A DNA stretch of 64,000 bases, taken from assembly GCA_017619615.1 (NCBI GenBank), contig JAFZRY010000014.1:107420-171419 (forward strand), given 5' to 3'. A program made the position numbers and the translations under genes. The notes below the pieces were generated by a model. That model did not search any database. It was not told the origin of the DNA and worked only from the letters and a program-made list of their open reading frames with translations. Positions 24,523-41,837 of the stretch are shown piece after piece; position 1 is the stretch's first letter; the number at the start of each line of letters is the position of its first letter. The DNA comes from Lachnospiraceae bacterium (lineage in GTDB: Bacteria; Bacillota; Clostridia; Lachnospirales; Lachnospiraceae).

Positions 24523-26484
24523 ATGGCAGGACATCCTTTAATAATAGTAGAGTCACCCACCAAAGAGCACACGATCAAGCGCTTTCTGGGCTCGAATTAC
24601 AGCGTGAAGGCGTCGGGCGGACACCTGCGGGATCTGCCGAAGAGCCGGATGGGCGTGGACATTGCGAACGATTACGAGCCGGAGTACATCTCCATCCGCG
24701 GCAAGGGCGACGTGATCAAGGCCCTGAAGAACGAAGCGAAGAAGGCCACGAAGGTCTATCTGGCGACGGACCCGGACCGCGAGGGCGAAGCCATCGCGTG
24801 GCATCTGGCGTTCCTGCTCAGGGACGTCAACCCGAAGCTGTACCGCATCAGTTTCAATGAGATCACGAAGGAGGCGGTGAAAGCCGCGCTGGCCAGCCCC
24901 CGCGCCATCGATCTGGAACTGGTGGACGCGCAGCAGGCGCGCCGCGTGCTGGACCGCGTGGCCGGGTATTCGGTGAGTCCGCTGCTGTGGAAGAAGATCA
25001 AGCGGGGCCTCTCCGCGGGCCGCGTGCAGTCCGCCACCCTGAACATGGTGGTGAGCCGCGACCGGGAGATCGACGCGTTCGATCCCGAGGAGTACTGGAC
25101 CCTGGAGGCCGCCCTGACCGTCGAAGGCCGTAAGGCGCCGCTCATCCTGCAGTACGACAACAAGCCCCGCGCCCTGAAATCGGAAGCAGACACGCAGGAC
25201 ATGATCGCGTACCTGGACGGCCGCCCGTTTGAGATCAGGTCCCTGACCAGCTCGCGCAAGCACGTGAAGGCCCCCAATCCCTTCACCACCAGCACGCTGC
25301 AGCAGGAGGCCTCCCGCATCCTGGGCTTCTCGCCCTCCAAGACCATGCGCGTGGCGCAGACCCTGTACGAAGGCGTGAAACTGGCGGAAGGCACTGTGGG
25401 TCTGATCACCTACCTCAGAACCGACAGCACGCGCATCGGCGCGGAAGCGGACGCCGCCGCCCGGTCGTACCTGAAAGAGAAATACGGCGAGGATTACGTG
25501 GGCAAGATCGCGGCCGCCGCCAAGAAAGACGAGCGGATCCAGGACGCGCACGAAGCCATCCGCCCGACCTCCATCGAGCGCACGCCGGAGAAGATCAAGG
25601 ACCAGATGGGCCGTGACGAACTGCGTCTGTACCAGCTGATCTGGAACCGCTTCGCGGCCAGCCGCATGGCGGATTACACCTACGACGCCGTGCAGCTGAC
25701 GGCCGCCGCCGGCGACGCCGTCTTCAAAGCCGCCGCGCAGAATCCCGTGTTCCAGGGCTACCGCCTTGTCTACAACCATGAGGACAAGCAGAAGGCCGAC
25801 AAAAACCTGGTGGGCATCACGAAGGACAGCGTCCTGACGGATCCGCGCTTCACACCGGAGCAGCATTTCACCCAGCCGCCCGCGCACTACACCGAGGCCT
25901 CGCTGGTGCAGAGCATGGAAGCCGCGGGCATCGGCCGGCCGTCCACCTACGCGCCCACGCTGGCGACGCTGATGGACCGCCATTATACGGCCCGCAAGGG
26001 CAAAAACGTGATCTCTACCGACCTCGGCCGCGCCGTGGACGACATGATCTGCCGCACCGTCCCCATGCTTGCGGACAAAAACTTCACCGCGGACATGGAG
26101 ACCCGCCTGGACAAGGTGGCCGAAGGCGGCGAGGAGTGGCGGGAGATCCTCCGCAGCTTCTATCCGCCGTTTAAGGAAAAACTGGACGCCGCCATGGAGG
26201 AGCTGGACCGCGTGCAGGTCAAGGACGAAGAGTCCGACGAAGTCTGCGAACTCTGCGGCCGCCGCATGGTCATCAAATACGGCCGCCACGGCAAATTCCT
26301 GGCGTGCCCGGGCTTCCCGGAGTGCAAGAACACGAAGCCGTTCCTGGAAGTCGCGGACGTCCCCTGCCCGGACTGCGGAGGCCGCCTGATCCTGCGCCGC
26401 ACCGCCAAGGGCCGCCGGTTCTTCGCCTGCGAAAACAAGGACTGCGGGTTCATGAGCTGGAACAAGCCGAAGGCAAAAGAGTAA
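24523..26484 (+). CDS. topA: DNA topoisomerase I
   Basis: 653 residues. Toprim domain (PLIIVESPTKEHTIKRFLG, then ATDPDREGEAIAWHL), the active-site tyrosine in LITYLRTDSTRIG (about residue 306), and two C-terminal four-cysteine zinc modules (CELCGRRM...C, CPDCGGRL...C). It relaxes negative supercoils. ATG 24523 is chosen because AGGAGG lies five bases upstream; a longer frame starting at 24484 has no such site. It is shorter than TopA of E. coli, which has more C-terminal modules. Confidence 0.96.
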   Translation: MAGHPLIIVESPTKEHTIKRFLGSNYSVKASGGHLRDLPKSRMGVDIANDYEPEYISIRGKGDVIKALKNEAKKATKVYLATDPDREGEAIAWHLAFLLRDVNPKLYRISFNEITKEAVKAALASPRAIDLELVDAQQARRVLDRVAGYSVSPLLWKKIKRGLSAGRVQSATLNMVVSRDREIDAFDPEEYWTLEAALTVEGRKAPLILQYDNKPRALKSEADTQDMIAYLDGRPFEIRSLTSSRKHVKAPNPFTTSTLQQEASRILGFSPSKTMRVAQTLYEGVKLAEGTVGLITYLRTDSTRIGAEADAAARSYLKEKYGEDYVGKIAAAAKKDERIQDAHEAIRPTSIERTPEKIKDQMGRDELRLYQLIWNRFAASRMADYTYDAVQLTAAAGDAVFKAAAQNPVFQGYRLVYNHEDKQKADKNLVGITKDSVLTDPRFTPEQHFTQPPAHYTEASLVQSMEAAGIGRPSTYAPTLATLMDRHYTARKGKNVISTDLGRAVDDMICRTVPMLADKNFTADMETRLDKVAEGGEEWREILRSFYPPFKEKLDAAMEELDRVQVKDEESDEVCELCGRRMVIKYGRHGKFLACPGFPECKNTKPFLEVADVPCPDCGGRLILRRTAKGRRFFACENKDCGFMSWNKPKAKE

Positions 26485-26509
26485 GAGCGGAAAGAACAAA
26501 CCAAGCCGG

Positions 26510-26552
26510 AACCGGCTGCTGCCCCGCCTGCGCGGGAAGGCGCCGGTTTTTT
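26510..26552 (+). terminator. Intrinsic terminator of topA
   Basis: AACCGGC (26510-26516) pairs with GCCGGTT (26542-26548), followed by a T-run; a smaller inner hairpin (CCCGCCTGCGCGGG) lies in the loop. Confidence 0.7.
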
Positions 26553-26855
26553 CGTGAGAGAAAGAGCGGTGGGCGTTTTTATACGACCGATAATATAGCG
26601 CGGGAAAATTAAGCAGAGGGAAGATGCTTTGGGCTAAACGAACTGTCGGGAAACCCGGGAATCGGGCTTGATGCGAGTAAAAAACATAGAGTTGCTAAAG
26701 GTTGAAAGTTGACGTGATTTATGATATATAATAACATGGTGTTTTAGTTGATATTATTCTTAATGCTTTGCCGAAAACCAATCAATATATTACCTGATAC
26801 GGTTTCCTATACATTGGCATTTTTGATAGAAGGGCTTCCATAACTGACAGTTGCC
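26553..26855 (+). other. AT-rich intergenic region before the LysR gene
   Basis: About 300 bases with no open frame worth calling. Base composition drops sharply here compared with topA. TTGAAA (26702-26707) and TATAAT (26727-26732) are 19 bases apart and may form a weak promoter with a 120-base leader. No integrase site, direct repeat or RNA gene is seen. Confidence 0.5.
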
Positions 26856-27788
26856 ATGAATATTTATCAAGTTGAAAATATTATTGCTATTTATGAGGAG
26901 GGCAGCATATCAAAAGCCGCAGAAAGGCTTTTTATTACGCAGAGCGCGCTGAACCAGCAGCTTTTGAAACTGGAGAAGCAGCTGGGAGCCCCTCTTTTTG
27001 TCCGCGGGAAACAGGGATTGTCTCCGACGGAGATCGGACAGGTCTATCTGGATGGCGCCATGGCCATGGTGGGTGTGAAAAAAAACACATATGATAAGAT
27101 CCGGAATATGCTGAATACAAAACAAAACCTTCTCCGTGTGGGACTGGTAACGGACCGCGGCCAGGACATGTTTACGACCATCTACTCCGAGTTCCGAAAG
27201 GAACATCCCCTGGTCAGCATTGAAGCCATCCCGACCAGCACCCTGGAACAAATCAAAATGCTTCGGGACAGAACGATGGACATTGCGTATCTGTGCCTGG
27301 AATCTCCGCCGGAAGAGTTCAACTACACGCAGGTCCTGCAGGAGACCATTCTTCTTGCTGCGCCTGCGGCGGGAATCCTTGCTCCTTACGCCGATCCTCA
27401 CCGGGCCTATTCTCCGATAGGAGATAAACTGCACCTGATCGAAAATGAAAAGTTCATTCTCTTTTCGCACAAGAGGACCCTGCGCGATGCAGTCGATTTT
27501 GTTTTTGAAAAGGAACATCTCATAGCAAACGTAGCCTCAACCATGGACAGTTCCGTGATGCTTCTGGAAATGGTGGGCAAGCAAGGATATTATTCGATGG
27601 TTCCCGAAACATACTATACAAAGCGTGACGATATTATATGGTTTTCGCTTAACTCTTTCCCGGAGTGGAACATGTACGCAACGACCGGTAAAACGGATGC
27701 CCTGACATCTGCGGGGATCGACTTTATAAACCTGAGCAAACAGTATTGGGGAGCCAGACTGAAAAGAATAAGGGACAAAACGCTGTAA
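26856..27788 (+). CDS. LysR family transcriptional regulator
   Basis: 310 residues. N-terminal winged helix (residues 1-60) with EGSISKAAERLFITQSALNQ and GAPLFVRGKQGLSPTEIGQ, then a periplasmic-binding-like effector domain (about 90-300). LysR proteins bind a small acid and activate nearby operons; the target is probably the carboxylate-use cluster just downstream, transcribed the same way. The ribosome-binding site is weak (the nearest purine run ends about 20 bases upstream). Lower GC and more A/T third positions than topA. Confidence 0.88.
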   Translation: MNIYQVENIIAIYEEGSISKAAERLFITQSALNQQLLKLEKQLGAPLFVRGKQGLSPTEIGQVYLDGAMAMVGVKKNTYDKIRNMLNTKQNLLRVGLVTDRGQDMFTTIYSEFRKEHPLVSIEAIPTSTLEQIKMLRDRTMDIAYLCLESPPEEFNYTQVLQETILLAAPAAGILAPYADPHRAYSPIGDKLHLIENEKFILFSHKRTLRDAVDFVFEKEHLIANVASTMDSSVMLLEMVGKQGYYSMVPETYYTKRDDIIWFSLNSFPEWNMYATTGKTDALTSAGIDFINLSKQYWGARLKRIRDKTL

Positions 27789-27841
27789 GAATAATACTGA
27801 CGATTCTGTCTGTGCCACGACGCTGAAAACTATCTTAATAA

Positions 27842-27899
27842 AACTAAGCCGCACTAAACATCACAATGGCTTGGATGTGATGCAAAGTGCGGCTTAGTT
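27842..27899 (+). terminator. 58-base perfect hairpin after the LysR gene
   Basis: AACTAAGCCGCACT (27842-27855) pairs with AGTGCGGCTTAGTT (27886-27899). An inner CATCAC/GTGATG stem extends it. It is followed by CTTTCTTTTG, so termination is the simplest reading. The 14-base ends would also suit a small non-coding mobile element. Confidence 0.65.
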
Positions 27900-28105
27900 C
27901 TTTCTTTTGCAGTGAATCACGAATTTGGAACACGCTGTCTGCTGACGGAGTAATTGTTTGCAGCGGATCTATTTTACAACACGCCTTAATTATTTTAAGA
28001 GATAAGACAAAATAGTTAATTTTACTTCCATTTTTTTGTGTGTTATATCAATAAAAAATGATCGAGTGCCAATTGCATTAATCAAGCCGTCCAATCAATG
28101 AAAGC
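27900..28105 (+). other. AT-rich leader region of the carboxylate cluster
   Basis: About 200 bases without a gene. It contains A/T tracts around 28010-28070 where a promoter would be expected, but I cannot pick convincing -35 and -10 boxes. It is the most likely LysR binding region. Confidence 0.4.
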
Positions 28106-29428
28106 GTGCCGAAAATGTACCTATCTTCTGACCCATGGGACCATGATATTTCACCCTATATCGGAGACGTGAAGATCCCCGAACTCAGCAGGATCCGCCA
28201 GCGCTTTACTACGACCGAAATCAGCGATCTCGAACAGCATGTCCGGGAGCATTTCACTTCTTTCCTGGAAGACAGAGATCTTCGGGGAAAGCGTATTGCT
28301 GTTACGGCTGGCAGTCGGCAGATCAGCGGCCTTGTCACGATCCTTAAAACCATAGTCGGTATTCTGAAAGAACGCGGCGCGGATCCTTTCGTTGTCGCGG
28401 CCATGGGCAGCCACGCAGGAGCTACCGGCGAAGGTCAGCGCGGGTTCCTGGCAACGCTGGGCATTACGGAAGAAGCTGTAGGAACGCGGATCGTCTCTCA
28501 AATGGAAACAGTCCTGATCGGACGTCTGGAAAGCGGCATGCCGGTCTATTGCGATAAGGCGGCGTCGGAGGCCGACGGTGTCATCGTTATGAACAAGATC
28601 AAGCCGCATGCAGATTTCAAGGGCGACGTGGAGAGCGGTCTGTGCAAAATGATGGCGATCGGTCTGGGAAAACGGGACGGTGCGGCGCTGTTTCATACGA
28701 TGGGCTTCGGTGTTTTTGCGACGCTCATCCCGCAGGTAGCGGAATGCTATCTTGAAAACCTGAACATTCTCTGCGGCGTAGGCATCGTCGAGAATTCTTT
28801 TGACAGGCCGATGATCTGCGAGTTCATTGCCCCGCAGAAGATCATTTCGCGGGAGAAGGACCTTCTGGTCATCGCCAAAGAGAACATGGCACGGCTCCTG
28901 ATGGACCGCATCGATGTGCTGGTCGTGGACCGGATCGGAAAAAACATCAGCGGGCAGGGCATGGATCCGAATGTTACCGGGCGGACCGGCTCCACGCTTC
29001 ATAAACTGTTCAACGAGGATCTGGTCGACCGCATCGTGGTCCTGGGACTCACGGAGGAAACCCACGGCAATTTTGCCGGTCTGGGCATGGCGGATTTCTC
29101 CACGACCGACGTAGTAAAGGGATTGGATTTCAAGGCAACGTACATCAATGAGGTGACGTCGCGGACCATCCCGCCCGCCAGGCTTCCCTTCCTGGTGAAA
29201 AACGACCGGCAGGCGATCCAAATGGGCATTTACACCTGTGACGCCTTCAGTTCGGGCAAAATAAGGCTCGTCCATATCCGTGACACAGCGCATCTCGAAG
29301 AAATCGAAGTTTCGCCCGCGATGCTCTGGGAAATGGCAGCCGGGTCCTACTCTTTTGAAAACGGAGAGGGTCCCGTTTGGACAGAAATGGAATTTGAGGA
29401 CGGCAAGCTGCACAGCCGCCTCATGTAG
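28106..29428 (+). CDS. LarA / DUF2088-like protein (lactate-racemase-like)
   Basis: 440 residues. Core motifs are GKRIAVTAGSRQISGL, AMGSHAGATGEGQ (about 98), VIVMNKIKPHADFKGDVESG (about 160) and MMAIGLGKRDGA, the pattern of DUF2088/LarA N-terminal-domain proteins. LarA is a nickel-pincer 2-hydroxyacid racemase; larB, larC and larE, which make its cofactor, are not in this window. Racemisation or epimerisation is therefore a family-based guess. The start is uncertain: GTG 28106 or ATG 28115, neither with a good ribosome-binding site. First gene of the transporter/oxidoreductase cluster. Confidence 0.65.
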   Translation: MPKMYLSSDPWDHDISPYIGDVKIPELSRIRQRFTTTEISDLEQHVREHFTSFLEDRDLRGKRIAVTAGSRQISGLVTILKTIVGILKERGADPFVVAAMGSHAGATGEGQRGFLATLGITEEAVGTRIVSQMETVLIGRLESGMPVYCDKAASEADGVIVMNKIKPHADFKGDVESGLCKMMAIGLGKRDGAALFHTMGFGVFATLIPQVAECYLENLNILCGVGIVENSFDRPMICEFIAPQKIISREKDLLVIAKENMARLLMDRIDVLVVDRIGKNISGQGMDPNVTGRTGSTLHKLFNEDLVDRIVVLGLTEETHGNFAGLGMADFSTTDVVKGLDFKATYINEVTSRTIPPARLPFLVKNDRQAIQMGIYTCDAFSSGKIRLVHIRDTAHLEEIEVSPAMLWEMAAGSYSFENGEGPVWTEMEFEDGKLHSRLM

Positions 29429-29445
29429 TACCTTGACATCGGTTT

Positions 29446-29468
29446 AAATTTCGCGGCCTACGAAATTT
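29446..29468. promoter_or_regulatory. Inverted repeat upstream of tctC
   Basis: AAATTTCG (29446-29453) and CGAAATTT (29461-29468) with seven bases between. It lies 45 bases before tctC. TTGACA occurs just upstream (29433-29438) without a clear -10. Operator or RNA hairpin; not decided. Confidence 0.4.
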
Positions 29469-29513
29469 AGATATAGCTCGTGAAACCAATGGATTCATAA
29501 AGGAGGAGAAAAC

Positions 29514-30566
29514 ATGAAAAAAGCACTTAGTCTAATCCTTGCCTTGGCGCTCGTGTTCGCGCTGGCGGGATGCAGCAGCTCTAACAACAACACCACTACC
29601 CCTGCCACTACCGCCGCTAACAACACTACCGCGAGCAATGAGACCCAGCCGACTTCGAGCTGGCCGGCTAAGGACATCCGGCTGATCGTCCCTTATTCCG
29701 CGGGCGGAAACAGCGACCTGTGCGCCAGAAAGCTGGCTGAGATCATTGAGAAGAAGAACCTGCTGAACGGTCACACGCTCGTTGTTACCAACATCCAAGG
29801 CAGCGCCACTCAGGAAGCGTTCAACGCTCTGATGACGGCCGATCCCGATGGCTACACCATCCTGATGCAGCACAACGCCATCCTGACACAGCCGGCATTC
29901 GGCAATGTTTCCTTCACGATGGAAGACGTCGGCGCGGTCTGCAAACTTATGGACCAGCCTTTCATGATCTTTGCCTCCGGGGATGCTCCTTTCAACACCA
30001 CCGCCGAACTGGTTGCGTATTGCAAAGATCATCCCGGTGAAAAGATCACCATGGGAGTCCCCGGTGTCGGTTCCTCCGGACAGATCGGTGTGGAAGTTTT
30101 CCTGGCTGAAGCCGGTATCCGCGACAGCATGCAGTTTGTTTACTATCCGAGCGGCGGTGACAGCCTGACCGGCCATCTTGCCGGTGAATGCGTCCTGCAC
30201 GGCGGCTTCGCAACGGATGGTATGCGCTATGTGCCGAGCGGCGAACTCAAAGTGATCGCTGTTTCCGGACAGTCCCGCAACGCCTCCATCCCGGACGTGG
30301 AATGCTTCGGCGAATTGGGCTTTAAGACCGACTACCTGACCTACCAGGGCATGTGGGTCACCAAAGGAACTCCGGACGATGTGGTGAATCAGATCGCCAA
30401 AGTCTTTGAACAGGCTGTGAATTCGGACGAATTCAAACAGTACTGCGATGAGCAGGGCTGCTCTCCGGCCTACATCGGACCGCAGGAATGGCATGACCTG
30501 ATGGCCAATCTGAACAGTGTTATTGTTGACCTTGTTCAGAAATACGGTCTTGCGAACTCAAAATAA
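29514..30566 (+). CDS. tctC: Tripartite tricarboxylate transporter substrate-binding protein TctC
   Basis: 350 residues. Lipoprotein signal ending LAGC (Cys20), a Ser/Thr/Asn-rich linker (about 21-48), then the Bug/TctC fold starting WPAKDIRLIVPYSAGGNSD. The PYSAGG loop contacts the substrate carboxylate in this family. The usual start of the mature protein, P-x-[KR]-x-[IV], is kept. Ligand unknown (citrate, tartrate, aromatic acids and hydroxyacids are all known for Bug proteins). AGGAGGAG precedes the ATG. Confidence 0.92.
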   Translation: MKKALSLILALALVFALAGCSSSNNNTTTPATTAANNTTASNETQPTSSWPAKDIRLIVPYSAGGNSDLCARKLAEIIEKKNLLNGHTLVVTNIQGSATQEAFNALMTADPDGYTILMQHNAILTQPAFGNVSFTMEDVGAVCKLMDQPFMIFASGDAPFNTTAELVAYCKDHPGEKITMGVPGVGSSGQIGVEVFLAEAGIRDSMQFVYYPSGGDSLTGHLAGECVLHGGFATDGMRYVPSGELKVIAVSGQSRNASIPDVECFGELGFKTDYLTYQGMWVTKGTPDDVVNQIAKVFEQAVNSDEFKQYCDEQGCSPAYIGPQEWHDLMANLNSVIVDLVQKYGLANSK

Positions 30567-30601
30567 ACCATAGTATTTCGCAGTTTTCTATCTAACAACG
30601 C

Positions 30602-30645
30602 TCCGGGCTTTACAAGATATTAGGCCGTTCAGTGTAAAGCCCGGA
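30602..30645 (+). terminator. 13-bp stem hairpin between tctC and tctB
   Basis: TCCGGGCTTTACA (30602-30614) pairs exactly with TGTAAAGCCCGGA (30633-30645). The following T-run (CTCCTTTT) is weak. Likely a partial terminator or mRNA stabiliser that keeps the binding protein in excess over the membrane subunits. Confidence 0.7.
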
Positions 30646-30671
30646 ACTCCTTTTAAGAAGAGGAAATACCC

Positions 30672-31151
30672 ATGAAGTTTAATTTTAAAAAAGGCGAAGC
30701 GATTTTTATGCTTTTCCTGATAGGACTGGGCGTTTTGCTGTTCTATGAATCCCTCATCACCGTTACGACGGTAGAGGAACCTGTTACTGCTTCGGCGTAC
30801 GGAATGGTGATATCCGGCATATTTCTCATAGCTGTGATTTCCCGCCTGATAATCCTCATCGCTGCTGTCAGGAAGGAAAACAATACCGATAAACTGGAAA
30901 TAAAACACCCTGCATTGATCTTCCTGTCGATTCTGGGGATTTTGATATATACACTGGGGATCATCAAAATCGGTTATTACGTTACGACCTTTGTCTTTTC
31001 TTCGGTCATGGTAATGGCTCTGCGTGAAAAAGAAAACAGGACTCTGAAGACAGGCATCTTCACAGTTATCGGATGCCTTCTGTTCACATTGGCCCTGTAT
31101 TTCGTGTTCACCCAGTTTAAAGTCTATCTGCCGAACGCATGGCTGATCTAG
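30672..31151 (+). CDS. tctB: Tripartite tricarboxylate transporter small membrane subunit TctB
   Basis: 159 residues, four hydrophobic helices, matching the length and topology of TctB. Sequence conservation in this family is low; the assignment rests on size, topology and position between tctC and tctA. It is cytoplasmic-membrane located. Confidence 0.85.
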   Translation: MKFNFKKGEAIFMLFLIGLGVLLFYESLITVTTVEEPVTASAYGMVISGIFLIAVISRLIILIAAVRKENNTDKLEIKHPALIFLSILGILIYTLGIIKIGYYVTTFVFSSVMVMALREKENRTLKTGIFTVIGCLLFTLALYFVFTQFKVYLPNAWLI

Positions 31152-31170
31152 GATCAGGAGGAGAGAAACC

Positions 31171-32694
31171 GTGTTAGAAAATTTAGTGGAATTACTTACC
31201 AGTGATGCAATCATATGGTTGATCATGGGTGTCTCCCTCGGATTGGTGTTTGGTGCGATCCCCGGTCTTTCCGCGACACTGGCCGTTGTCCTGCTGATCC
31301 CCTTCACCTACAGTTTGTCTGCGGAGACCGGCATTGCGACATTGATCGGAGCTTACGTGGGCGGCATTTCCGGCGGTCTCGTGGCTGCTATCATGATCAA
31401 TATGCCGGGCACACCGTCTTCGGTGGCTACGACCTTTGACGGGTTTCCGATGGCCAAGCAGGGAAGAGCGGGGAAAGCGCTTGGCGTCGGTGTCATCAGT
31501 TCCTTCTTCGGCACTTTGTTCAGTTGGGGAGCCCTCGTCCTGTTCGCGCCGAAACTTTCTGCGATCACGCTTAAGTTCGGCCCTTACGAAATGGTCGGCG
31601 CCATCCTCTTCGGTTTGACCGCTGTCATCTCGCTGTCCGGCGAATCTTTGCATAAGGGCCTCGTATCGGCAGCGCTCGGCCTGGCTTTGTGTCTGATCGG
31701 GATCGAAAACGGATCATTTGCAAAACGGGCAACTTTTAATAATCCGATGCTGGCCGGCGGTATTCCGTATATGCCTGCGCTGATCGGCATGTTCGTCATC
31801 TCCGAGGTGCTCAATCAGTTTGAGAAGATCGACGAGAAATACCTTGTGCCGAAGCAGAAACTCAAGGGTGCCTATATGACTCTTAAAGAGTTCATAGAGT
31901 CCCTTCCGAACATGATCCGCTCCAGTTTCGTCGGTCTTTTGATCGGCATCCTTCCCGGCATAGGCGGCAGTTTTGCCAATTTTGTAACTTATGACCTGGC
32001 AAAACGTTCATCGAAACATCCCGAGACTTTTGGCAAGGGCAATTACCAGGGCGTTGTAGCCAGTGAAAGCGGCAACAATGCAACAATTGGCGGGGCACTT
32101 ATCCCGATGGTCTGCCTGGGTATCCCCGGGGACATCGTGACAGCGGCACTGATGGGCGGCTTAATGCTGAAAAATGCTTCGCCCGGACCGTACTTTATGC
32201 GCGAGCATGGGGATTTGGCAAATACAATATTTAATTCATTGCTGATTGCCAGTCTGGTCATGCTGGTCATAATGCTGCTGATTGCGATCCGTGTCTTTGC
32301 CGTGGTTCTGCGTCTGCCGAAATACGTTATGCTTCCGCTGGTTCTGGTCATGGCATTGGCCGGTATTTACAACATCAACTATTCTATCCCGGAAATGTTC
32401 GTCGGTCTGATCATGGGCGTTTTCGGGTATATGCTGGATAAATTCAAGTATCCCAAAACGCCGCTGGTTATCACCCTGATTCTCGGCAAGAGCCTGGAAC
32501 TCTATTTCCGCAGGGGACTGGTATTGAGCAGCGGCAGCCTTCTTCCTTTTGTTCAGAGACCGTACTCTCTTGCCTTCCTGATCCTGACAGTCATCGCGCT
32601 GGCGGTTCCGTTTGTCAGTAAAGCCAGAAAAAAGGCAAAGGCGAAAGAAGAGAATGGAAATACTGCCCCGAAGGAATCAGAAGTGCAGGAGTAA
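31171..32694 (+). CDS. tctA: Tripartite tricarboxylate transporter large membrane subunit TctA
   Basis: 507 residues, about 12 helices. TctA signatures are LGLVFGAIPGLSATLAVVLL (about 20-39), GGISGGLVAAIMINMPGTPS, and GILPGIGGSFANFVTYDLAK in the second half, which mirrors the first. GTG start with AGGAGGAG at normal distance. The lysine-rich tail (KARKKAKAKEE) is cytoplasmic. With TctB and TctC it forms a secondary, ion-driven carboxylate importer. Confidence 0.95.
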   Translation: MLENLVELLTSDAIIWLIMGVSLGLVFGAIPGLSATLAVVLLIPFTYSLSAETGIATLIGAYVGGISGGLVAAIMINMPGTPSSVATTFDGFPMAKQGRAGKALGVGVISSFFGTLFSWGALVLFAPKLSAITLKFGPYEMVGAILFGLTAVISLSGESLHKGLVSAALGLALCLIGIENGSFAKRATFNNPMLAGGIPYMPALIGMFVISEVLNQFEKIDEKYLVPKQKLKGAYMTLKEFIESLPNMIRSSFVGLLIGILPGIGGSFANFVTYDLAKRSSKHPETFGKGNYQGVVASESGNNATIGGALIPMVCLGIPGDIVTAALMGGLMLKNASPGPYFMREHGDLANTIFNSLLIASLVMLVIMLLIAIRVFAVVLRLPKYVMLPLVLVMALAGIYNINYSIPEMFVGLIMGVFGYMLDKFKYPKTPLVITLILGKSLELYFRRGLVLSSGSLLPFVQRPYSLAFLILTVIALAVPFVSKARKKAKAKEENGNTAPKESEVQE

Positions 32695-32758
32695 CGGCAC
32701 GGCCGCGATCCTTGAAAAATCGAATGACCTGCTGTCTGGCAGGGTGGAGGTAAAAACC

Positions 32759-33772
32759 TTGTATAAAGTGTTGCTGACAGAACCCATTGATCCGATCGGC
32801 GTGAAACTGCTGAAAGAGCATTTCACTGTCGACCTGGCTCCCGACCCGAAAGAGGAGACCATCGTTTCCCTGATCGGCGATTATGACGCGCTGGTGATTC
32901 GGGCCACGAAACTTACGGAAAACATTCTGGACGCCGGTAAAAAGCTCAAGATCGTCAGCCGGCACGGTGTAGGGCAGGACAACCTGGATATTCCTGCTGC
33001 GACACACCATAAAGTCCTGCTTACTACCACACCGGGGGCTAATGCCCACAGCGTGGCAGAACATGCGGTAGGGATGGCGATCGTCCTTATGAAGCGCTAC
33101 GGAGAGGCAGAAAAGCTTCTGCGGGACGGAACTTTCAATCAGCCCGGTTCTCTGACCGGACTGCTCAGCAAGATCGGCTTTGTTAACGAAGTACTCGAAG
33201 GCAAGACCATCGCCCTGGTGGGCACAGGTGCTATTGCGAAACGGGTCGCCGAGATCTGCCATGTCGGGTTCGGTATGAACGTTATCGGATATGATCCGTA
33301 CGTCAGCGCTGAAGTCATGGCAGAACATGGCATCAAAAAATATGAAACGGTGGAAGAAATGCTTCCGCTTTGCGATGTTCTTTCTGTCCATGTGCCCAAA
33401 ACGCCGGCCACGGAGAATATGATCAATAAGGATTCCTTCGCAAAAATGCGCAGGAATGCAGTGATTATCAATACTTCCAGAGGCGGCATCGTCAATGAGG
33501 CGGATCTTGCCCAGGCGCTTTGTTCCGGACAGATCGCCGGCGCGGGTCTGGATGTGTTTTCGCCGGAACCGCCTTTGCTCGACAATCCGCTTTTCAGTCT
33601 GGAAAACGTCATCATGACGCCCCATATCGCCGCGGCATCAGACGGTGCCATGTACAATATGTCCAAATGCGCGGCCGAAAATATTTTGGAATACCTCGAG
33701 GGCGGGAAGCCGCGTTTTCTCCTGAACCCTGAGATTTACGTACCCGTTTCCGAACACCCCAGACGGGGCTGA
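32759..33772 (+). CDS. D-isomer-specific 2-hydroxyacid dehydrogenase
   Basis: 337 residues. NAD motif ALVGTGAIAKRVAEI (about 156), then SRHGVGQDNLD in the catalytic domain, the catalytic arginine in NTSRGGIVNEADL (about 242), Glu in LDVFSPEPP, and catalytic His in TPHIAAASDGA. Related to SerA/VanH. It should interconvert a D-2-hydroxyacid and its 2-oxoacid with NAD(P). TTG 32759 is chosen because GGTGGAGGT lies seven bases upstream; the open frame continues back into tctA. No C-terminal ACT domain, so it is not a full SerA. Confidence 0.82.
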   Translation: MYKVLLTEPIDPIGVKLLKEHFTVDLAPDPKEETIVSLIGDYDALVIRATKLTENILDAGKKLKIVSRHGVGQDNLDIPAATHHKVLLTTTPGANAHSVAEHAVGMAIVLMKRYGEAEKLLRDGTFNQPGSLTGLLSKIGFVNEVLEGKTIALVGTGAIAKRVAEICHVGFGMNVIGYDPYVSAEVMAEHGIKKYETVEEMLPLCDVLSVHVPKTPATENMINKDSFAKMRRNAVIINTSRGGIVNEADLAQALCSGQIAGAGLDVFSPEPPLLDNPLFSLENVIMTPHIAAASDGAMYNMSKCAAENILEYLEGGKPRFLLNPEIYVPVSEHPRRG

Positions 33773-33799
33773 AGTGCTTCCGGAGAGAGAAGGTGAAAC

Positions 33800-34177
33800 A
33801 TGAAGGCAATATTCCATGTTAACGATTTGAATAAGTGGACGACGACGCTGAACAGTGCTCTCAACATGCACAAAGTGGCAAAGGAAAACGGCGTTCCGGC
33901 AGATATATATATTGTCTCAAACGGTGAATCGGTCCTTATCATGAAGGGAGATCCCGAAGAGATGAGCGCTGAAGGAAAAGACCCCGCGCTTGCTGCTGCC
34001 CGTCTTCGTCTGCAGGAAGCCTTTGAAAAGAAGCTCCATGTCTGCTTTTGTCTTAAGGCGATGTCCCTCAGGGACCTTTCCCTCCCGGAGGATCTCGGAA
34101 GGGCGGAACTGGTCGCCTCTTCCGCTTTCCGTATGGCAGAGCTGCAGGAGCAGGGCTACGCATATATAAAGAGCTGA
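33800..34177 (+). CDS. DsrE-like protein
   Basis: 125 residues with a DsrE/DsrF-type alpha/beta fold: KAIFHVNDLNKWTTTLNSAL, an ADIYIVSNGESV strand, and a CFCLKAM segment (about 80) where DsrE proteins place a sulfur-carrying cysteine. DsrE proteins move persulfide sulfur, but many in carbon clusters are uncharacterised. Tight spacing to the dehydrogenase and the oxidoreductase genes suggests a helper role here, possibly sulfur delivery or substrate handling; this is inference. Confidence 0.6.
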   Translation: MKAIFHVNDLNKWTTTLNSALNMHKVAKENGVPADIYIVSNGESVLIMKGDPEEMSAEGKDPALAAARLRLQEAFEKKLHVCFCLKAMSLRDLSLPEDLGRAELVASSAFRMAELQEQGYAYIKS

Positions 34178-34220
34178 ACATATCCGCTGCTTTCTTGCCG
34201 GATAGGAAAGGATAATGGAA

Positions 34221-34412
34221 ATGAAAATACTCGTAAATGAAAAACGGTGCAAACGCTGCGGGATATGCTATTCATTCTGCCCGAAATCCGTTTTTGATCA
34301 TGACGAAGACGGCCGTCCTCAGCCTGTCAGAACGGAAGACTGTATTGCCTGCAGACTCTGTGAGATGCGCTGCCCGGATTTCGCCATTCAGGTCGTGAAG
34401 GAGGATCAATAA
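34221..34412 (+). CDS. 2-oxoacid:ferredoxin oxidoreductase delta subunit (2[4Fe-4S] ferredoxin)
   Basis: 63 residues with two complete clusters: CKRCGICYSFCP and CIACRLCEMRCP. It is the electron-carrying subunit of the oxidoreductase. ATG 34221 is preferred over ATG 34215 because AAAGGA ends eight bases before it and only two before the other. The alpha gene begins two bases after its stop. Confidence 0.9.
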   Translation: MKILVNEKRCKRCGICYSFCPKSVFDHDEDGRPQPVRTEDCIACRLCEMRCPDFAIQVVKEDQ

Positions 34413-34414
34413 TC

Positions 34415-35545
34415 ATGGGAAAATTCAGATTCATGCAGGGGAATGAAGCCATGACGGAAGGTGCCATTGCAGCCGGCGCCCGTTTCTATGCGGGCTACCC
34501 GATCACCCCTTCCAGTGAAGTGGCGGAAACGTCTTCCGTGCGTCTGCCACAGGTCGGAGGCACCTATATCCAGATGGAAGATGAGATTGGAAGCATGGCT
34601 GCTTTGATCGGTGCTTCGGTCTGCGGAAAAAAGGCCTATACGGCAACCAGCGGCCCCGGCATCTCGCTGATGTCCGAGAACCTGGGGGTGGCTATGATGG
34701 GCGAAGTTCCGTGCGTAGTCATTGACGTACAGCGCTCCGGGCCGAGTACGGGCCTTGCGACAAAGCCTGCACAGGGTGATGTTATGCAGACTCGCTGGGG
34801 GACGCAGGGAGATCATTCCATTATAGTTCTGTCGCCGTCTTCCGTACAGGACTGCTTTGATCTTATGATCACGGCCTTCAACTATGCCGAACAATACAGA
34901 ACCCCGGTCATTTTCCTTTCCGAAGAAATCATCGGCCACCTGCGTGAGCAGGTCATTATCCGTGATCCGGAAGAGATCACGGTCGTTGACCGGGCCAGGC
35001 CCGCCGGAGACCCGAAGGATTACAGGGTCTATGATCATTCACAGGGCCTGGCACCGCTGGCGACTTTCGGCAGTGATTATATTTTTAAGATCAATGCTAC
35101 CATGCATGACGAAAAAGGCAATCCGAGCGCGAATCAGGAGAACTGCGAGCGGATCGTGAGGCATTTGTCGGAGAAGATCGAATCGCACGTGAAGGATATC
35201 AGTATTGTCAGAAGATATAACCTCGAAGATGCTGAATATATCATCATCACTTACGGAGGAACTACGCGGTCCGCGCTTTCAGCCATGCAGAAGGGGCGCG
35301 ACGCGGGGCTTAAGATCGGCGTTTTGCAGATCGTTACCCTGTGGCCGGCTCCCGGCGCCGAGATCGAAGAAGTCATGAGTTCCGCGAACGCAGTCTTTGT
35401 CCCGGAATTGAATCTCGGACAGTATATATCCGAGGTACAGAAACGCAATCCCAGAAACATTCCGGTCATCGGTATCAACAAAACAAACAGCAAACCGATT
35501 TTTCCTGCGGAAATTCTGGAGAAGATCAAGGAGGTCGCTGACTAA
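34415..35545 (+). CDS. korA: 2-oxoacid:ferredoxin oxidoreductase alpha subunit (KorA-like)
   Basis: 376 residues. MQGNEAMTEGAIAAGARFYA and GYPITPSSEVAE are the KorA pyrimidine-domain motifs; IQMEDEIGSMAALIGASVCG and TATSGPGISLM follow. The family oxidises 2-oxoacids (2-oxoglutarate, branched-chain oxoacids, others) to acyl-CoA and CO2, reducing ferredoxin. The exact substrate cannot be read; context suggests the product of the adjacent hydroxyacid dehydrogenase. The stop overlaps the next start (TAATG). Confidence 0.9.
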   Translation: MGKFRFMQGNEAMTEGAIAAGARFYAGYPITPSSEVAETSSVRLPQVGGTYIQMEDEIGSMAALIGASVCGKKAYTATSGPGISLMSENLGVAMMGEVPCVVIDVQRSGPSTGLATKPAQGDVMQTRWGTQGDHSIIVLSPSSVQDCFDLMITAFNYAEQYRTPVIFLSEEIIGHLREQVIIRDPEEITVVDRARPAGDPKDYRVYDHSQGLAPLATFGSDYIFKINATMHDEKGNPSANQENCERIVRHLSEKIESHVKDISIVRRYNLEDAEYIIITYGGTTRSALSAMQKGRDAGLKIGVLQIVTLWPAPGAEIEEVMSSANAVFVPELNLGQYISEVQKRNPRNIPVIGINKTNSKPIFPAEILEKIKEVAD

Positions 35546-36363
35546 TGATTTCGGATTATTTACTTGAGGAAAAACTTCCGCTTTCCTGGTGTGCAGGCTG
35601 CGGAAACGGTATCATTCTTCAGTCGATCATGCGGAACATCGATGCACGCCACTGGCGGAAAGAAGATACGGTCATCTGCACCGGGATCGGATGCTCCGGC
35701 AAAGCCGATGACTATACAAGGACCAATTCGTTCCACGGGACCCATGGCCGGGCGATCGCTTTTTCGACCGGCATGAAACTGGCAAATCCGAATCTGCATG
35801 TGGTGGCTGTAATGGGCGATGGTGACGGCATTACGATCGGCGGCAACCATCTGATCCACGCGGCACGCCGCAACATGGACATCGTAGCCATTATGATAAA
35901 CAACCTGAACTACGGCATGACCGGCGGGCAGTATTCCGGCACGACTCCTCGGGATTCGATCACCAAGACCTCCGTATACGGACATGTGGAAGACGGCTTT
36001 GACGTGTGCGGCGTAGTCAAAGCGGCCGGAGGCACTTTCGTGGCCAGGGGAACCGTCATGGATGTCGTACAGTTAAACTCGCTGATCGGCAAAGCCATGG
36101 ATCACAAGGGATTCGCTTTCGTTGAGGTCATTTCTCCCTGTCCGGCTCAGTTCGGCCGTAATAATAAGATGTCTGCTGCGCCAGCCATGATGCAGTGGAT
36201 CAAGGACAATACCGTTTCAGTGGCAAAAGCGGCCGGTATGAGCCGGGCAGAACTGAAAAAGAAGTTTGTCACGGGCATCTTTGAGGATCGGAATGATCAG
36301 GACGATTACTATACGGCGTATAAGAAGATCATCGACAGGCTGGGAGGAGAAGAGAATGAGTAA
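35545..36363 (+). CDS. korB: 2-oxoacid:ferredoxin oxidoreductase beta subunit (KorB-like, ThDP)
   Basis: 272 residues. Cluster ligands in LSWCAGCGNGI and ICTGIGCSGK, and the thiamine diphosphate/Mg2+ motif AVMGDGDGITIGGNHLIH...NLNYGMTGGQ. SPCPAQFGRNN (CP motif) is family-typical. It overlaps the gamma gene by eight bases. Confidence 0.92.
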   Translation: MISDYLLEEKLPLSWCAGCGNGIILQSIMRNIDARHWRKEDTVICTGIGCSGKADDYTRTNSFHGTHGRAIAFSTGMKLANPNLHVVAVMGDGDGITIGGNHLIHAARRNMDIVAIMINNLNYGMTGGQYSGTTPRDSITKTSVYGHVEDGFDVCGVVKAAGGTFVARGTVMDVVQLNSLIGKAMDHKGFAFVEVISPCPAQFGRNNKMSAAPAMMQWIKDNTVSVAKAAGMSRAELKKKFVTGIFEDRNDQDDYYTAYKKIIDRLGGEENE

Positions 36364-36919
36364 GCAGAAAGAAGTCACGATCAGCGGCGTGGGCGGCCAG
36401 GGGATGATCCTCTCCGGGACACTGCTGGCAAAAGCGGCTGCTATCCATGATCATAAAAAAGCGACCCTTTCTTCGGAATACGGCGTCGAAACCCGCGGTA
36501 CTTTTGCAAAATCAGACGTCATCGTAAGCGATGAGGAAATCTATTTTCCGGACGTGACCGAACCGGACCTTGTTGTTTGTCTGCACCAGATCGCCTATGC
36601 ACGTTACAGCGGAAAAGTGGGGGAAAAAGGCGTTCTGATTTACGACTCCAGTGAGGTCACTCCGGATCTGGCGCAGGCCGGAAAGGAAATCGGAGTAGAT
36701 ATCACGGCTGAGGCGAAGAAGGCGGGGCATCCCGCGACCGCAAATATCATCGTCATGGGCATGATCAGCGGATATCTGGACCTTGTGGAACCGGAGGGCG
36801 CCGAAGAGCAGATTAGAGAGTTTTTCGGAGCAAAAGGTGAAAAAACGGTTCAGATGAACCTGGTGGCCTATGATAACGGTTATGCCATCGGGAAAAACCT
36901 CGGACAGAATCGTGAATAA
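36356..36919 (+). CDS. korC: 2-oxoacid:ferredoxin oxidoreductase gamma subunit (KorC-like)
   Basis: 187 residues. VTISGVGGQGMILSGTLLA at the N-terminus and SSEYGVETRGTFAKSDVIVS are gamma-domain signatures. ATG 36356 has GGGAGGAGA directly upstream. Last gene of the cluster; order delta-alpha-beta-gamma is standard for four-subunit enzymes. Confidence 0.92.
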   Translation: MSKQKEVTISGVGGQGMILSGTLLAKAAAIHDHKKATLSSEYGVETRGTFAKSDVIVSDEEIYFPDVTEPDLVVCLHQIAYARYSGKVGEKGVLIYDSSEVTPDLAQAGKEIGVDITAEAKKAGHPATANIIVMGMISGYLDLVEPEGAEEQIREFFGAKGEKTVQMNLVAYDNGYAIGKNLGQNRE

Positions 36920-36985
36920 CCGGTATTTCTCCTTTTTTACTATTGTTTAGGAACACTTCTGTTTGCTTCTTCATTTTTTCCTTTT

Positions 36986-37020
36986 AACCGTCCGTCCTTT
37001 CGCAGGGGGGGCGGTTTTTT
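36986..37020 (+). terminator. Intrinsic terminator of the carboxylate cluster
   Basis: AACCGTCC (36986-36993) pairs, with one G-T wobble, with the GGGGCGGTT region (37007-37015), followed by a T-run. Confidence 0.65.
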
Positions 37021-37088
37021 GATGCCAATACCGGAAACAACGGGATCCGATTCTTGCAGCATAACTTCCTGAGTTGTCTGAAAATAAC

Positions 37089-37117
37089 TTGCTTATGCCG
37101 GAAAAATATTGTAAGAT
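37089..37117 (+). promoter_or_regulatory. Promoter of codY
   Basis: TTGCTT (37089-37094), 17-base spacer, TAAGAT (37112-37117). The start codon is 50 bases downstream. Confidence 0.75.
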
Positions 37118-37145
37118 AGCGGTGTTGAACCCGCTATCTTTTTTA
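37115..37145 (+). terminator. Perfect hairpin with T-run overlapping the codY start site
   Basis: AGATAGCGG (37115-37123) pairs with CCGCTATCT (37131-37139), then six T. Its left arm includes the end of the -10 box. For readthrough RNA from upstream it is a complete terminator; for RNA starting at the codY promoter most of the left arm is missing. It could also be an operator. Confidence 0.6.
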
Positions 37146-37166
37146 TTCATCCAAGGAGGTCCGCCG

Positions 37167-37922
37167 ATGAGCGTACAATTGCTGGACAAAATGAGAAGAA
37201 TCAATAAATTGCTGCACTACGACGACAGCAATGTCGTCTCGTTCGGGGACATTTCCCGCGTGATGGGCGTGGAGTTCGGCGCGGGGGTCGTGGTGATCAG
37301 CGGCAAGGGGAAGATCCTGGGGCTGGGCCAGCCGCCGTTCGATCCGCTGTGGCCGCAGCTGCAGGTGGGCGATTTCCTGCCCGCGGAGCTGAACGAACGG
37401 CTGCTGAACATCCTGTCCACGCAGGAGAACGCGAGCCTGCAGGCCCTGGGCTTCGAGGGCGAGGCGTGCGAGCGGCTGAAGGCCATCATAGCGCCGGTGG
37501 AGATCTCGCGGGTGCGGCTGGGCACGCTGTTCATCTACCGCGAGGGGAAAGGCTTCGACGTGGACGACATCATCCTGACCGAGCACGCGACCATGATCAT
37601 CGGCCTGGAGATGCGCCGCTCCTTAAGCGAAGAGGCGTCGCGCGAATTCCGCATGCAGCAGGCGGCCCGCTCGGCGGTGGCCACGCTGTCCGCGTCGGAA
37701 CTGGAGGCGGTGCGCTACATCCTGGACGAGCTGGGCGGCACGGAGGGCATCCTGGTGGCCAGCAAGATCGCGGACCGGGTGGGCATCACGCGGTCGGTGA
37801 TCGTCAACGCGCTGCGGAAGCTGGAGAGCGCGGAGATCATCGAGTCCCGGTCGTCGGGGATGAAGGGAACGTACATCCGCGTATTGAACAATCTGATCGA
37901 AGACGAACTGAATAATGCGTAA
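37167..37922 (+). CDS. codY: GTP-sensing global regulator CodY
   Basis: 251 residues. N-terminal GAF domain ([19 protein letters not shown], then FGDISRVMG) binding branched-chain amino acids, and a C-terminal winged helix with [20 protein letters not shown]. CodY represses biosynthesis and transport genes when Ile/Val and GTP are plentiful. ATG 37167 has CCAAGGAGGT upstream; a longer open frame is rejected. Separated from topA by the 10.5-kb insert. brnQ, the TRAP transporter and ilvD-like genes here are plausible targets. Confidence 0.96.
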
Positions 37923-37932
37923 AGGAGCCACC

Positions 37933-39630
37933 ATGGAGATCCACAACCATGACATCGACGACCGCACGCAGGCCTATTACGTCGGCCTGATGCACGCGTG
38001 CGGCTACAGCGAAAAAGACCTGCGCCACCCGGTGATCGGCATCGTCAACTCCTTTACGGACGCCAACCCGGGCCACAAGCCGCTGCGCGAGCTGGCGCAG
38101 TACGTGAAGGACGGCGTGTGGGCGGCCGGCGGGACGCCGGCGGAATTCTGCGTGCCGGCGCCGTGCGACGGGATGGCGCAGGGGCTCGGGATGCATTACA
38201 TCCTGCCGGAACGCGACCTGATCGCGGGCGCGGCGGAAGGGATGGCGCGGGCCCACGATTTCGACGGCCTCGTCTTCCTGTGCTCCTGCGACAAGATCGT
38301 CCCGGGCATGCTGATGGCGGCGGCCTCGCTGGATAAGCCCTGCATCTTCCTGACCGCGGGCTGCATGATCCCGTACGACGACGGGCAGCGGGTCTTCGTG
38401 ACCCCGGACCTTAAGGAATCCATCGGCGAATACAACGCGGAGCGCATCACGGCCGCGGAATTCGACCGCTACAAACAGAACATCTGCTTCTCCGGCGGGA
38501 CCTGCTCCATGTACGGGACGGCCAATACGATGGGGGTGTTCGCGGAGGCCATCGGCATTTCGCCGATCGGCTCGGTCACGACGCTGTTCTGCTCCGCGGA
38601 CAAGATGCGCCAGGCCCGCATGGTCGGCGCGCGCGCCGTGGAACTGGTGCGGGAGGGGATCCGCTTTTCGGACATCGTCACCTGCGATTCGGTGGTCAAC
38701 GGCCTGCGCCACGTGAGCGCGACCGGCGGCTCCACTAACGCGCAGCTGCACATCTGCGCGCTGGCCAAGGTCATGGGGCTCCCGATCGGGCTGCGCGAAT
38801 TCGACGAGATCCAGAAGGACGTCCCGGTCATCGCGAAGTTCAAACCGTCCTCGAAGTACAATATCAGCGACTACCACAAGGCCGGCGGCGTCGGCGCGAC
38901 CCTGCAGGCCATCCGCCGCCATCTGAACCTGGACGCGAAACTCGTGACGGGCGGCACGCTGGGCGAATTCCTGGACCGCTTCGACCGGCCGGTGGACCGG
39001 AACATCATTCATACGGAGGAGGATCCGCTGTACCCGGACGGCTGCTTCAAGGTGCTGTACGGGAACATCGCGCCGGGCGGCTGCATCGTGAAAAAGAGCG
39101 GCGTGGAGCCGTCCATGTTCCGCCACAGCGGGCCGGCGGTCTGCTTTGATTCGGAGGAAGCGCTGCGCGAGGCGATGGTGGACCGGCGGATCGTGCCCGG
39201 CTGCGTGCTGGTGATCCGCTACGAGGGCCCGAAGGGCGGGCCGGGCATGCGCGAAATGTCCATCCCCGCCGCCATGCTGGTGGGCATGGGCCTGCACACG
39301 TCCGTGGCCATGATCACGGACGGCCGGTACTCCGGCGCTACCCGGGGGCCGTGCATCGGCCACATTTCCCCGGAGGCGTGGGACGGCGGCCCGATCGCGG
39401 CGGTGCGGGACGGCGACATGATCCATATCGACATCGACGCGGGCACGATCCACGCGGATATTCCCGACGAAGAAATCTGCGCACGTCTGCAGCACGTCGC
39501 CCGTCCGGACCATCCGGCCGCCGGCGTGATGGCCGCGTACCGCGAGACAGTATCGGCTTCGAATGACGGCGCGACCTGGCTGTACCGCAAAAAAGCGACA
39601 TCTGAGGCGGCACAAGGCGGCAAATTGTGA
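37933..39630 (+). CDS. IlvD/Edd family dehydratase
   Basis: 565 residues, usual for IlvD. The Fe-S region is visible as [28 protein letters not shown] and [14 protein letters not shown]; the substrate loop as [11 protein letters not shown] and the C-terminal [20 protein letters not shown]. It should be dihydroxy-acid dehydratase (branched-chain amino acids) or a sugar-acid dehydratase of the same family; [13 protein letters not shown] differs from the CGGMYTANTM of most IlvD proteins, so I leave the symbol open. AAAGGAG follows the codY stop directly, so codY and this gene are one operon. Confidence 0.85.
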
Positions 39631-39660
39631 AACAATTATGAATTATAAATGAAATTTCTC

Positions 39661-39690
39661 TTGCGGACATTAGGAATAATATGCTATATT
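39661..39690 (+). promoter_or_regulatory. Promoter of the TRAP transporter operon
   Basis: TTGCGG (39661-39666), 18-base spacer, TATATT (39685-39690) preceded by TGC (extended -10). Confidence 0.65.
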
Positions 39691-39714
39691 TATTCAGTTG
39701 TTAGACGCGGAAAA

Positions 39715-39731: not shown

Positions 39732-39752
39732 CACAAACGAAGAGGAGCAATC

Positions 39753-41762: not shown

Positions 41763-41783
41763 CCGCTTTACCCCTGATAGTCC

Positions 41784-41800: not shown

Positions 41801-41837
41801 CAGCTATAAAAACAAAACACAAAAGGAGAGAAACAAA

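Follow-up and report, generated by a model that had tools for sequence, protein, structure and literature searches.

A Candidate 2-Hydroxyacid Catabolic Operon with a LarA-Like Protein in an Apparently Acquired Island of a Lachnospiraceae Bacterium

Introduction

Isomerases of the LarA superfamily depend on the nickel-pincer nucleotide (NPN). Group 22 of this superfamily, represented by the NCBIfam model NF052515, carries no assigned substrate in the model name. The residues K184 and H200 of LarA and K183 and H199 of LarAIp are described in excerpts of PMC7583248 and PMC12393405, respectively. A group 22 protein is encoded in a block of eleven genes at positions 26856–36919 of a 64,000-nucleotide stretch of DNA (hereafter, the window) from a Lachnospiraceae bacterium (assembly GCA_017619615.1, contig JAFZRY010000014.1, positions 107,420 to 171,419, forward strand). 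This block, considered here as a candidate operon of 2-hydroxy acid catabolism, also encodes a tripartite tricarboxylate transporter (TTT), a D-2-hydroxyacid dehydrogenase (HADH), a DsrE-like protein and a 2-oxoacid:ferredoxin oxidoreductase (Kor).

These components have described counterparts as well. The 2-oxoglutarate:ferredoxin oxidoreductase KorDABC/OorDABC is composed of four separate subunits, like the enzyme of the block. The ligands of characterised TTT systems apparently bear two carboxylic groups, or another group, e.g., sulfate or amide (excerpt of PMC5812351). SERA enzymes employ basic positions for an acidic side group (excerpt of PMC6303947).

Gene Content and Proposed Pathway

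All eleven genes are co-directional and follow the order LysR, LarA-like, TctCBA, HADH, DsrE-like, KorDABC (window coordinates; scores are given in bits against the model cut-off):

26856..27788, plus strand: LysR-type regulator (HTH_1 and LysR_substrate over cut-off)
28106..29428, plus strand: LarA homologue, NPN-dependent isomerase group 22 (NF052515, 495 against 400)
29514..30566, plus strand: TctC solute-binding protein (PF03401 over cut-off; solved relatives BugD and others)
30672..31151, plus strand: TctB small permease (PF07331 over cut-off)
31171..32694, plus strand: TctA large permease (PF01970 over cut-off)
32759..33772, plus strand: HADH, phosphoglycerate-dehydrogenase-like (PF00389, PF02826)
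33800..34177, plus strand: DsrE-like small protein (PF02635, 27.5 against 22.7)
34215..34412, plus strand: KorD, 65-aa ferredoxin subunit (ATG start; family scan)
34415..35545, plus strand: KorA, alpha subunit of 2-oxoacid:ferredoxin oxidoreductase (NF006412, 513 against 411)
35545..36363, plus strand: KorB, beta subunit binding thiamine pyrophosphate (domain scan; best solved relative 8ys5_C)
36356..36919, plus strand: KorC, gamma subunit (PF01558 over cut-off)

The genes, their strand, order and span agree with the initial annotation, whose family assignments proved right in curated-model and domain scans. Its count of ten genes was one short, because KorD, a separate ferredoxin gene, falls below the 80-aa minimum of the open reading frame list. 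Likely starts are TTG at 32759 for HADH, preceded by GGAGG, and ATG at 36356 for KorC. From larA to korC, neighbouring genes are separated by −8 to 105 nt, and these ten genes would be expressed together; the gap between the LysR gene and larA is 317 nt.

The chain of import, inversion, oxidation and decarboxylation put forward in the initial annotation is plausible and is the best-supported reading of the locus, to which about even confidence could be given, each reaction being deduced from sequence. The block would be a recently acquired catabolic operon under LysR control. TctCBA would import a 2-hydroxy acid bearing a second acidic group. Inversion of the C2 hydroxyl, making the pool usable, could be performed by the group 22 LarA with NPN. 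HADH would oxidise the D-form with NAD+ to the 2-oxoacid, and the latter could be decarboxylated by KorDABC with CoA, yielding acyl-CoA, CO2 and reduced ferredoxin. Reduced ferredoxin could then be turned into an ion gradient by Rnf. The most likely substrate, proposed tentatively, is 2-hydroxyglutarate, which would be converted via 2-oxoglutarate to succinyl-CoA; glycerate- or sugar-acid-type substrates and sulfolactate are possible alternatives.

Properties of the Encoded Proteins

The LarA-like protein matches the group 22 model over its whole length. In a weak match to the solved LarA 2yjg (E 0.24), residues R71, H103 and H168 align to R75, H108 and H174. K181 and H197 could be equated with LarA K184 and H200 by conservation and spacing, the distance of 16 between them being the same as in LarA and LarAIp. 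K181, H197 and H168 were found in 67 of 67 group 22 sequences (66 loci and the window), R71 and H103 in 66, the exception being a sequence truncated at a contig start (L063). The NPN lysine, the nickel histidine and the two catalytic histidines are all present. Group 22 reaches archaea and Roseobacteraceae plasmids; the terms "Group 22" and "LarAH22" do not occur in the LarA papers PMC12393405, PMC11770544 and PMC11796402.

Paralogue expansion is observed in one family (f17), in which five genomes of 2.0–2.7 Mb (G046, G077, G096, G121 and G137) contain 4–7 group 22 matches each, all over the cut-off except one.

The TTT system is complete, its three Pfam domains being over cut-off together. 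HADH is closest in sequence to phosphoglycerate dehydrogenases but lacks the regulatory domain; it stays under the cut-off of TIGR01327 (294 against 454), a model whose 525 positions include regulatory parts. According to the alignment, its catalytic R/E/H and the NAD Asp are kept. Both basic positions by which SERA enzymes deal with an acidic side group are present, and the Arg of the SERA Arg-Ser motif is kept while the Ser is absent. Relatives of HADH at E 1e-60 were found in 13 of 391 genomes of the class, its own included (best other, 42%). Among eight stretches examined around such relatives, Tct matches occur only in L171 and L173, the former also containing LarA.

All four Kor subunits are present. 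The best solved relative of KorB is the beta subunit of 2-oxoglutarate:ferredoxin oxidoreductase (8ys5_C; 276 bits, the next relative reaching 161). For KorA it is 1yd7, named merely a 2-keto acid enzyme, with the alpha subunit of 8ys5 in second place. The model passed by KorA, NF006412, is named 2-oxoacid:acceptor oxidoreductase. The models named for 2-oxoglutarate are missed (NF007206, alpha, 376 against 579; NF007207, beta, 310 against 364), so the enzyme is classed only as 2-oxoacid:ferredoxin oxidoreductase. Taken together, the likeness of HADH and Kor hints weakly at a substrate bearing a further acid group, 2-oxoglutarate being the first candidate 2-oxoacid.

The DsrE-like protein keeps the aligned cysteine of its family (7 of 7 aligned), located inside CxC. 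Weak relatives were found in six other genomes among the 391 of the class, none of them near Kor, LarA or Tct matches, and the plasmid search described below gave no DsrE match. The Rnf complex, noted earlier in the same window, was confirmed at 8845–13733 on the minus strand; five of its six subunits exceed the curated cut-off, RnfG being below it (77 against 102).

Acquisition of the Island

The eleven-gene block is apparently one acquired island between topA and codY:

26525..26550, plus strand: terminator-like hairpin (26525–26542) and T run 3' of topA, left island edge
26561..37049, strand not applicable: acquired island, borders approximate (GC 0.512)
36992..37020, plus strand: terminator-like hairpin (36992–37014), then six T, 3' of korC

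The site is empty in close relatives, and the composition of the block deviates from its surroundings. In the nearest relative compared (G206; CodY 100% and TopA 98% identical), the order is topA, lipoprotein-like gene (with a sub-threshold trigger-factor match), codY, IlvD, TRAP, TAXI, rpsB, the shared genes being 89–100% identical. DNA similarity between the window and this relative stops at 26560 and restarts at 37074. The GC content of the island contrasts with 0.637 in the 10 kb to the left and 0.615 to the right (to 44772), and the GC content at third codon positions is 0.54–0.68 in the eleven genes against 0.83–0.90 in topA, codY, IlvD, TRAP, TAXI, rpsB and tsf. Since base composition differs, gain of the island is likelier than its loss in the relative. 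The absence of the block from this site in relatives and the shift in composition at each border bear out its treatment as a unit in the initial annotation and rule out a chance neighbourhood.

Neither integrase nor transposase was found among the eleven genes by family scans, and no flanking direct repeat longer than 9 nt was found at the borders, where the longest shared word ends in six T. Terminator-like matches do not greatly exceed those in shuffled sequence (16 found; mean 11.1, sd 3.1), and the hairpin after topA is also present in a relative without the island.

The dehydratase of the IlvD type and the TAXI-TRAP genes to the right (37915–42845) were considered as pathway members and excluded as older than the island, because island-less close relatives (L190, L191) carry them between codY and rpsB at 89–98% identity.

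The gene codY was found in 15 of 15 other searched genomes of the genus, and the surrounding stretch was read in each; in at least three of them (L193, L197, L200) codY directly follows topA and precedes rpsB-tsf. The gap between topA and codY (window 26484–37167; L190, L191, L193) is variable in the genus. In some genomes it is short; in others it holds the lipoprotein-like gene, the 10.5-kb island or, in G199, several genes including, judged by eye, an aldo-keto reductase and a sigma-factor-like gene. The codY–rpsB interval contains IlvD-TRAP-TAXI in L190 and L191, TRAP-TAXI without an IlvD match in L194 and L196, and none of these in L193, L197 and L200; judging by these contents, it is a second insertion or loss site beside the first. 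A tRNA-Cys call of ARAGORN at 39430–39527 (minus strand), antisense within the IlvD-like gene, is probably false. Large leucine-rich-repeat-like open reading frames flank the topA–tsf stretch at 22036–24297 (minus strand; likeness by eye) and 45091–47094 (plus strand), the latter with an internalin model match far under the cut-off (128 against 1700).

Gene Neighbourhoods of Group 22 LarA

Of 68 loci surveyed for group 22, L062 and L064 were dropped as having no group 22 match, which left 66. Only group 22 matches fetched with flanks were counted, and the searches for neighbouring families started from seed proteins of the window and of a small number of loci, so that distant members are missed. 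Since several loci hit contig ends, the neighbour counts are lower bounds. Within about 9.5 kb, GarD/UxaA-type genes were found at 15 loci, HADH at 7, TctA at 5, IlvD at 5, GarR at 5 and KorA at 3. A small control of 20 stretches picked by hand from these genomes gave 1 (GarD/UxaA-type), 1 (HADH), 0 (TctA), 1 (IlvD) and 0 (KorA).

The LarA scan of the genome collection gave seven loci. The best one, L085, belongs to a Clostridia metagenome-assembled genome from horse feces and contains an IclR-type gene (by eye) followed by LarA-TctC-TctB-TctA, which are 55, 64, 46 and 74% identical to those of the island. Group 22 LarA occurs together with TctA and TctC in L085, L141, L142, L171, L068 and on a Loktanella plasmid. 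Kor and HADH accompany LarA in the congener loci L144 and L145 (genomes G201 and G205), where KorDABC-HADH-IlvD-Ldh2-LarA-GarD/UxaA-type form one run. In L145, LarA and IlvD score over their cut-offs; the HADH and the proteins of the Ldh2 and GarD types do not reach the cut-off of any single model. Such partial recurrences speak for a connection of group 22 LarA with TctA and TctC, and of LarA with Kor and HADH. Among the 15 other genomes of the genus, 5 contain relatives of the island LarA at E 1e-20; being just 37–40% identical, they are not considered orthologs.

The plasmid search gave 114 records with a match, and the regions of seven were read. On the Loktanella salsilacus plasmid, tctCBA is divergent from IlvD-Ldh-DapA-altronate dehydratase-LarA-hypothetical-LarB-LarC-adenine nucleotide alpha hydrolase. 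Plasmids of Pseudosulfitobacter and Sulfitobacter carry altronate dehydratase-LarA-LarC, and that of Marinovum has TRAP genes beside LarA, with KDPGal aldolase and a kinase. A 2-hydroxyacid dehydrogenase is located about 5–8 kb from LarA in Pseudosulfitobacter and Haladaptatus. The neighbours of LarA on the Rubrobacter, Haloarcula and Haladaptatus plasmids are otherwise different.

Among the loci examined, the full set is seen only in this island, and what is peculiar to it is the pairing of the front end with HADH-DsrE-Kor. The literature search (open-licence PMC) likewise turned up no named pathway with this gene set, as the initial annotation had supposed. The combination looks new; its parts belong to known families, and group 22 LarA with a TTT system occurs elsewhere.

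Arguments against the Proposed Pathway

A number of observations weigh against the import–inversion–oxidation–decarboxylation scheme. The full gene order, sought elsewhere, was found at none of the 66 group 22 loci, several of which are truncated by contig ends. The neighbour series alone proves no enrichment, because Fisher P against the controls ranges from 0.10 to 1.0 (UxaA 0.10, HADH 0.67, TctA 0.59, KorA 1.0). The neighbours of group 22, both in the survey (GarD/UxaA-type) and on the plasmids, favour sugar acids over a plain dicarboxylate. The contig of L085 ends after tctA, so the back half of the operon is not visible there.

Other points concern the proteins themselves. The position of D72, which contacts ribose in LarA, is occupied by A68 (by alignment only); Asp is found there in 0 of the 66 group 22 sequences having a residue at this position, so its absence marks group 22 and not this protein. 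The scores of KorB (310 against 364) and KorC (131 against 235) fall short of the cut-offs of the best models. The DsrE-like protein has no role in the scheme, and the earlier remark that it lacks an obvious place is shared here.

The inversion step is not borne out as first stated. It needs NPN, and the genome (90.8% complete) has a clear LarC (466 bits, C13:11918-13093) but neither LarB nor LarE over cut-off, the best matches being 33 against 175 for LarB and 42 against 150 for LarE.

Cofactor Supply

NPN supply is left unexplained, since LarB and LarE were not found over cut-off. The 42-bit match to the LarE model, at window 62533–63552, was rejected as LarE because its score in the C-terminal model of GMP synthase is over cut-off (413 against 339), and the second match, on C17, reaches 28 bits. 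This cell probably does not produce NPN or its precursor through the complete known route.

This gene distribution is not confined to one genome. Twenty-seven genomes were tested, 16 over the group 22 cut-off and 11 with a relative of the island LarA; four genomes with weaker or partial group 22 matches were left out. LarE and LarB are both missing over cut-off in the same 8 of the 27 (79–100% complete), and G297 additionally lacks LarB, its contig starting inside larC. Six of the eight keep LarC (G000, G201, G204, G207, G074, G111); in G115 (100% complete) and G270, LarB, LarC and LarE are all under cut-off. The group 22 LarA proteins of these two genomes (L071 and L149) retain intact NPN residues.

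Of 16 genomes of the genus, 6 have LarB over cut-off and 10 do not. LarB-LarC-LarE stand together in five congeners (L137, L138, L232-L234), and L235 has LarB-LarC where its contig ends. Nine of the genomes without LarB over cut-off, the own one included, have a solitary LarC adjoining the same small gene on the same strand:

11876-13660 of contig C13 (L061): LarC and the S gene of an energy-coupling factor (ECF) transporter, own genome

The small gene is downstream of LarC in six genomes (L061, L229-L231, L238, L239) and upstream in three (L236, L237, L240). Scans of this gene from two of the nine identify it as the S component of an ECF transporter (PF12822, 75 and 74 against 30.7); its best NCBIfam match is a folate family, below cut-off (33 against 60). 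In G074 and G111 (L241, L242), where LarC is likewise solitary, no such neighbour was found. The genes larB and larE were probably lost from the LarC site, because the AAA- and VWA-type genes near LarC in L061 look, by eye, the same as those near larB in L232. Separately, a larC remnant with stop codons was observed in another genome (G037:C10:42501-42710) beside intact larB and larE calls.

The LarC–ECF S pair is a possible uptake pair for a cofactor precursor. In such a salvage, a lineage that lost larB and larE would import an NPN precursor from producing neighbours, and LarC, responsible for nickel insertion, with the ECF S gene would feed LarA enzymes, the newly acquired one among them. 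This is rather unlikely, and relatives such as G206, which have LarC and the S gene without a relative of the island LarA at E 1e-20, speak against a simple form of it. No report of nickel-pincer salvage was found in the literature search (open-licence PMC). A bolder form would have the DsrE-like protein, of the sulfur-carrier type, help to thiolate the precursor in place of LarE.

Alternative Interpretations

The same machinery could serve a sugar-acid or glycerate-type substrate, a possible though doubtful reading. LarA would epimerise C2 of an aldonate or glycerate, HADH would oxidise the product (for glycerate, to hydroxypyruvate), and Kor would decarboxylate it. Sugar-acid genes (GarD/UxaA-type, IlvD, GarR) are often found near group 22 LarA in the survey, and on the plasmids altronate dehydratase, L-arabinonate dehydratase or KDPGal aldolase adjoins it or is located nearby. 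In Haloarcula, a DUF4147 protein, which we take to be glycerate kinase, is encoded near the group 22 LarA. The island, however, contains no dehydratase, aldolase or kinase, and the action of Kor on hydroxypyruvate or a long 2-oxo-aldonate would be unusual.

Organosulfonate catabolism is much less probable. TctCBA would import sulfolactate, LarA would racemise it, a dehydrogenase similar to SlcC would produce sulfopyruvate, and Kor would form sulfoacetyl-CoA. A TTT system serving sulfolactate is known, SlcHFG (excerpt of PMC5812351), and SlcC groups with or beside SERA-type dehydrogenases (excerpt of PMC6303947). The best model for the Ldh2-type neighbour in the congener is L-sulfolactate dehydrogenase, far under its cut-off (265 against 500). 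On the other hand, tctB is downstream of tctA in slcHFG systems (excerpt of PMC5812351), while the order in the island is C-B-A. No SuyAB- or ComDE-type gene was found among the eleven by family scans, and no such route appeared in the literature search, as far as titles and abstract openings tell.

In principle, both Kor and 2-hydroxyacid dehydrogenases can work in either direction, and sequence does not tell which one applies. Kor and HADH could form a D-2-hydroxy acid that serves as an electron sink, and LarA and TctCBA would equilibrate it or take it up again. We regard such a reversed chain as improbable to a similar degree, since the layout with LysR first and the transporter early resembles catabolic operons. 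In addition, TTT systems with a binding protein are known for uptake (excerpt of PMC5812351).

That the LarA-like protein is inactive for lack of cofactor, the operon handling the D-isomer alone via HADH and Kor, would fit the missing LarB and LarE and the lack of LarB over cut-off in the nearest relatives compared, yet is very doubtful given a reading frame that is not decayed and NPN-site residues intact both here and in ten LarA sequences from the seven other genomes lacking LarB and LarE.

Significance and Comparison with Known Systems

In one family of this order a single genome may hold as many as seven copies of group 22, whose NCBIfam name contains no substrate. The operon sets a member of the group in a short chain with a transporter and two downstream enzymes; therefore, what TctC binds has to be consistent with the substrates of LarA and Kor. 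With LarB and LarE missing, the question arises from where LarA enzymes in such genomes obtain their cofactor. If import takes place, NPN or its precursor would be a shared good among bacteria.

Compared with the LarA superfamily group 22 at large, the island protein shares the whole-protein match and the NPN, nickel and catalytic residues, and differs in belonging to a genome without LarB and LarE over cut-off. Kor differs from KorDABC/OorDABC in that its beta and gamma subunits are under the best-model cut-offs and its genes are embedded in an operon with transporter, LarA and HADH. The D-A-B-C gene order resembles that of oorDABC.

The congener cluster L144/L145 shares Kor, phosphoglycerate-dehydrogenase-like HADH and group 22 LarA with the island, the proteins being 29–58% identical. 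It has additional dehydratases and Ldh2, gives no Tct or DsrE match, and in L145 contains an auxin-efflux-type carrier (below cut-off).

Sulfolactate utilisation (SlcHFG, SlcC, ComC) resembles the island in TTT uptake and a SERA-related dehydrogenase. There, according to a reference title, a 2-hydroxy acid is inverted by two dehydrogenases, whereas in the island LarA would perform this reaction; the island also lacks SuyAB/ComDE and has a different tct gene order.

The Roseobacteraceae plasmids (Loktanella, Marinovum, Pseudosulfitobacter, Sulfitobacter) also carry group 22 LarA, there near sugar-acid genes. Uptake would be provided by a TTT system in Loktanella, as in the island, and by TRAP in Marinovum; in Pseudosulfitobacter a 2-hydroxyacid dehydrogenase is annotated at the edge of the stretch. 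Dehydratases and/or aldolases take the place that Kor has in the island, and no Kor or DsrE gene is annotated in these stretches, whose gene tables are incomplete. In Loktanella, LarA is accompanied by larB, larC and a gene for an adenine nucleotide alpha hydrolase, which its position suggests to be LarE-like.

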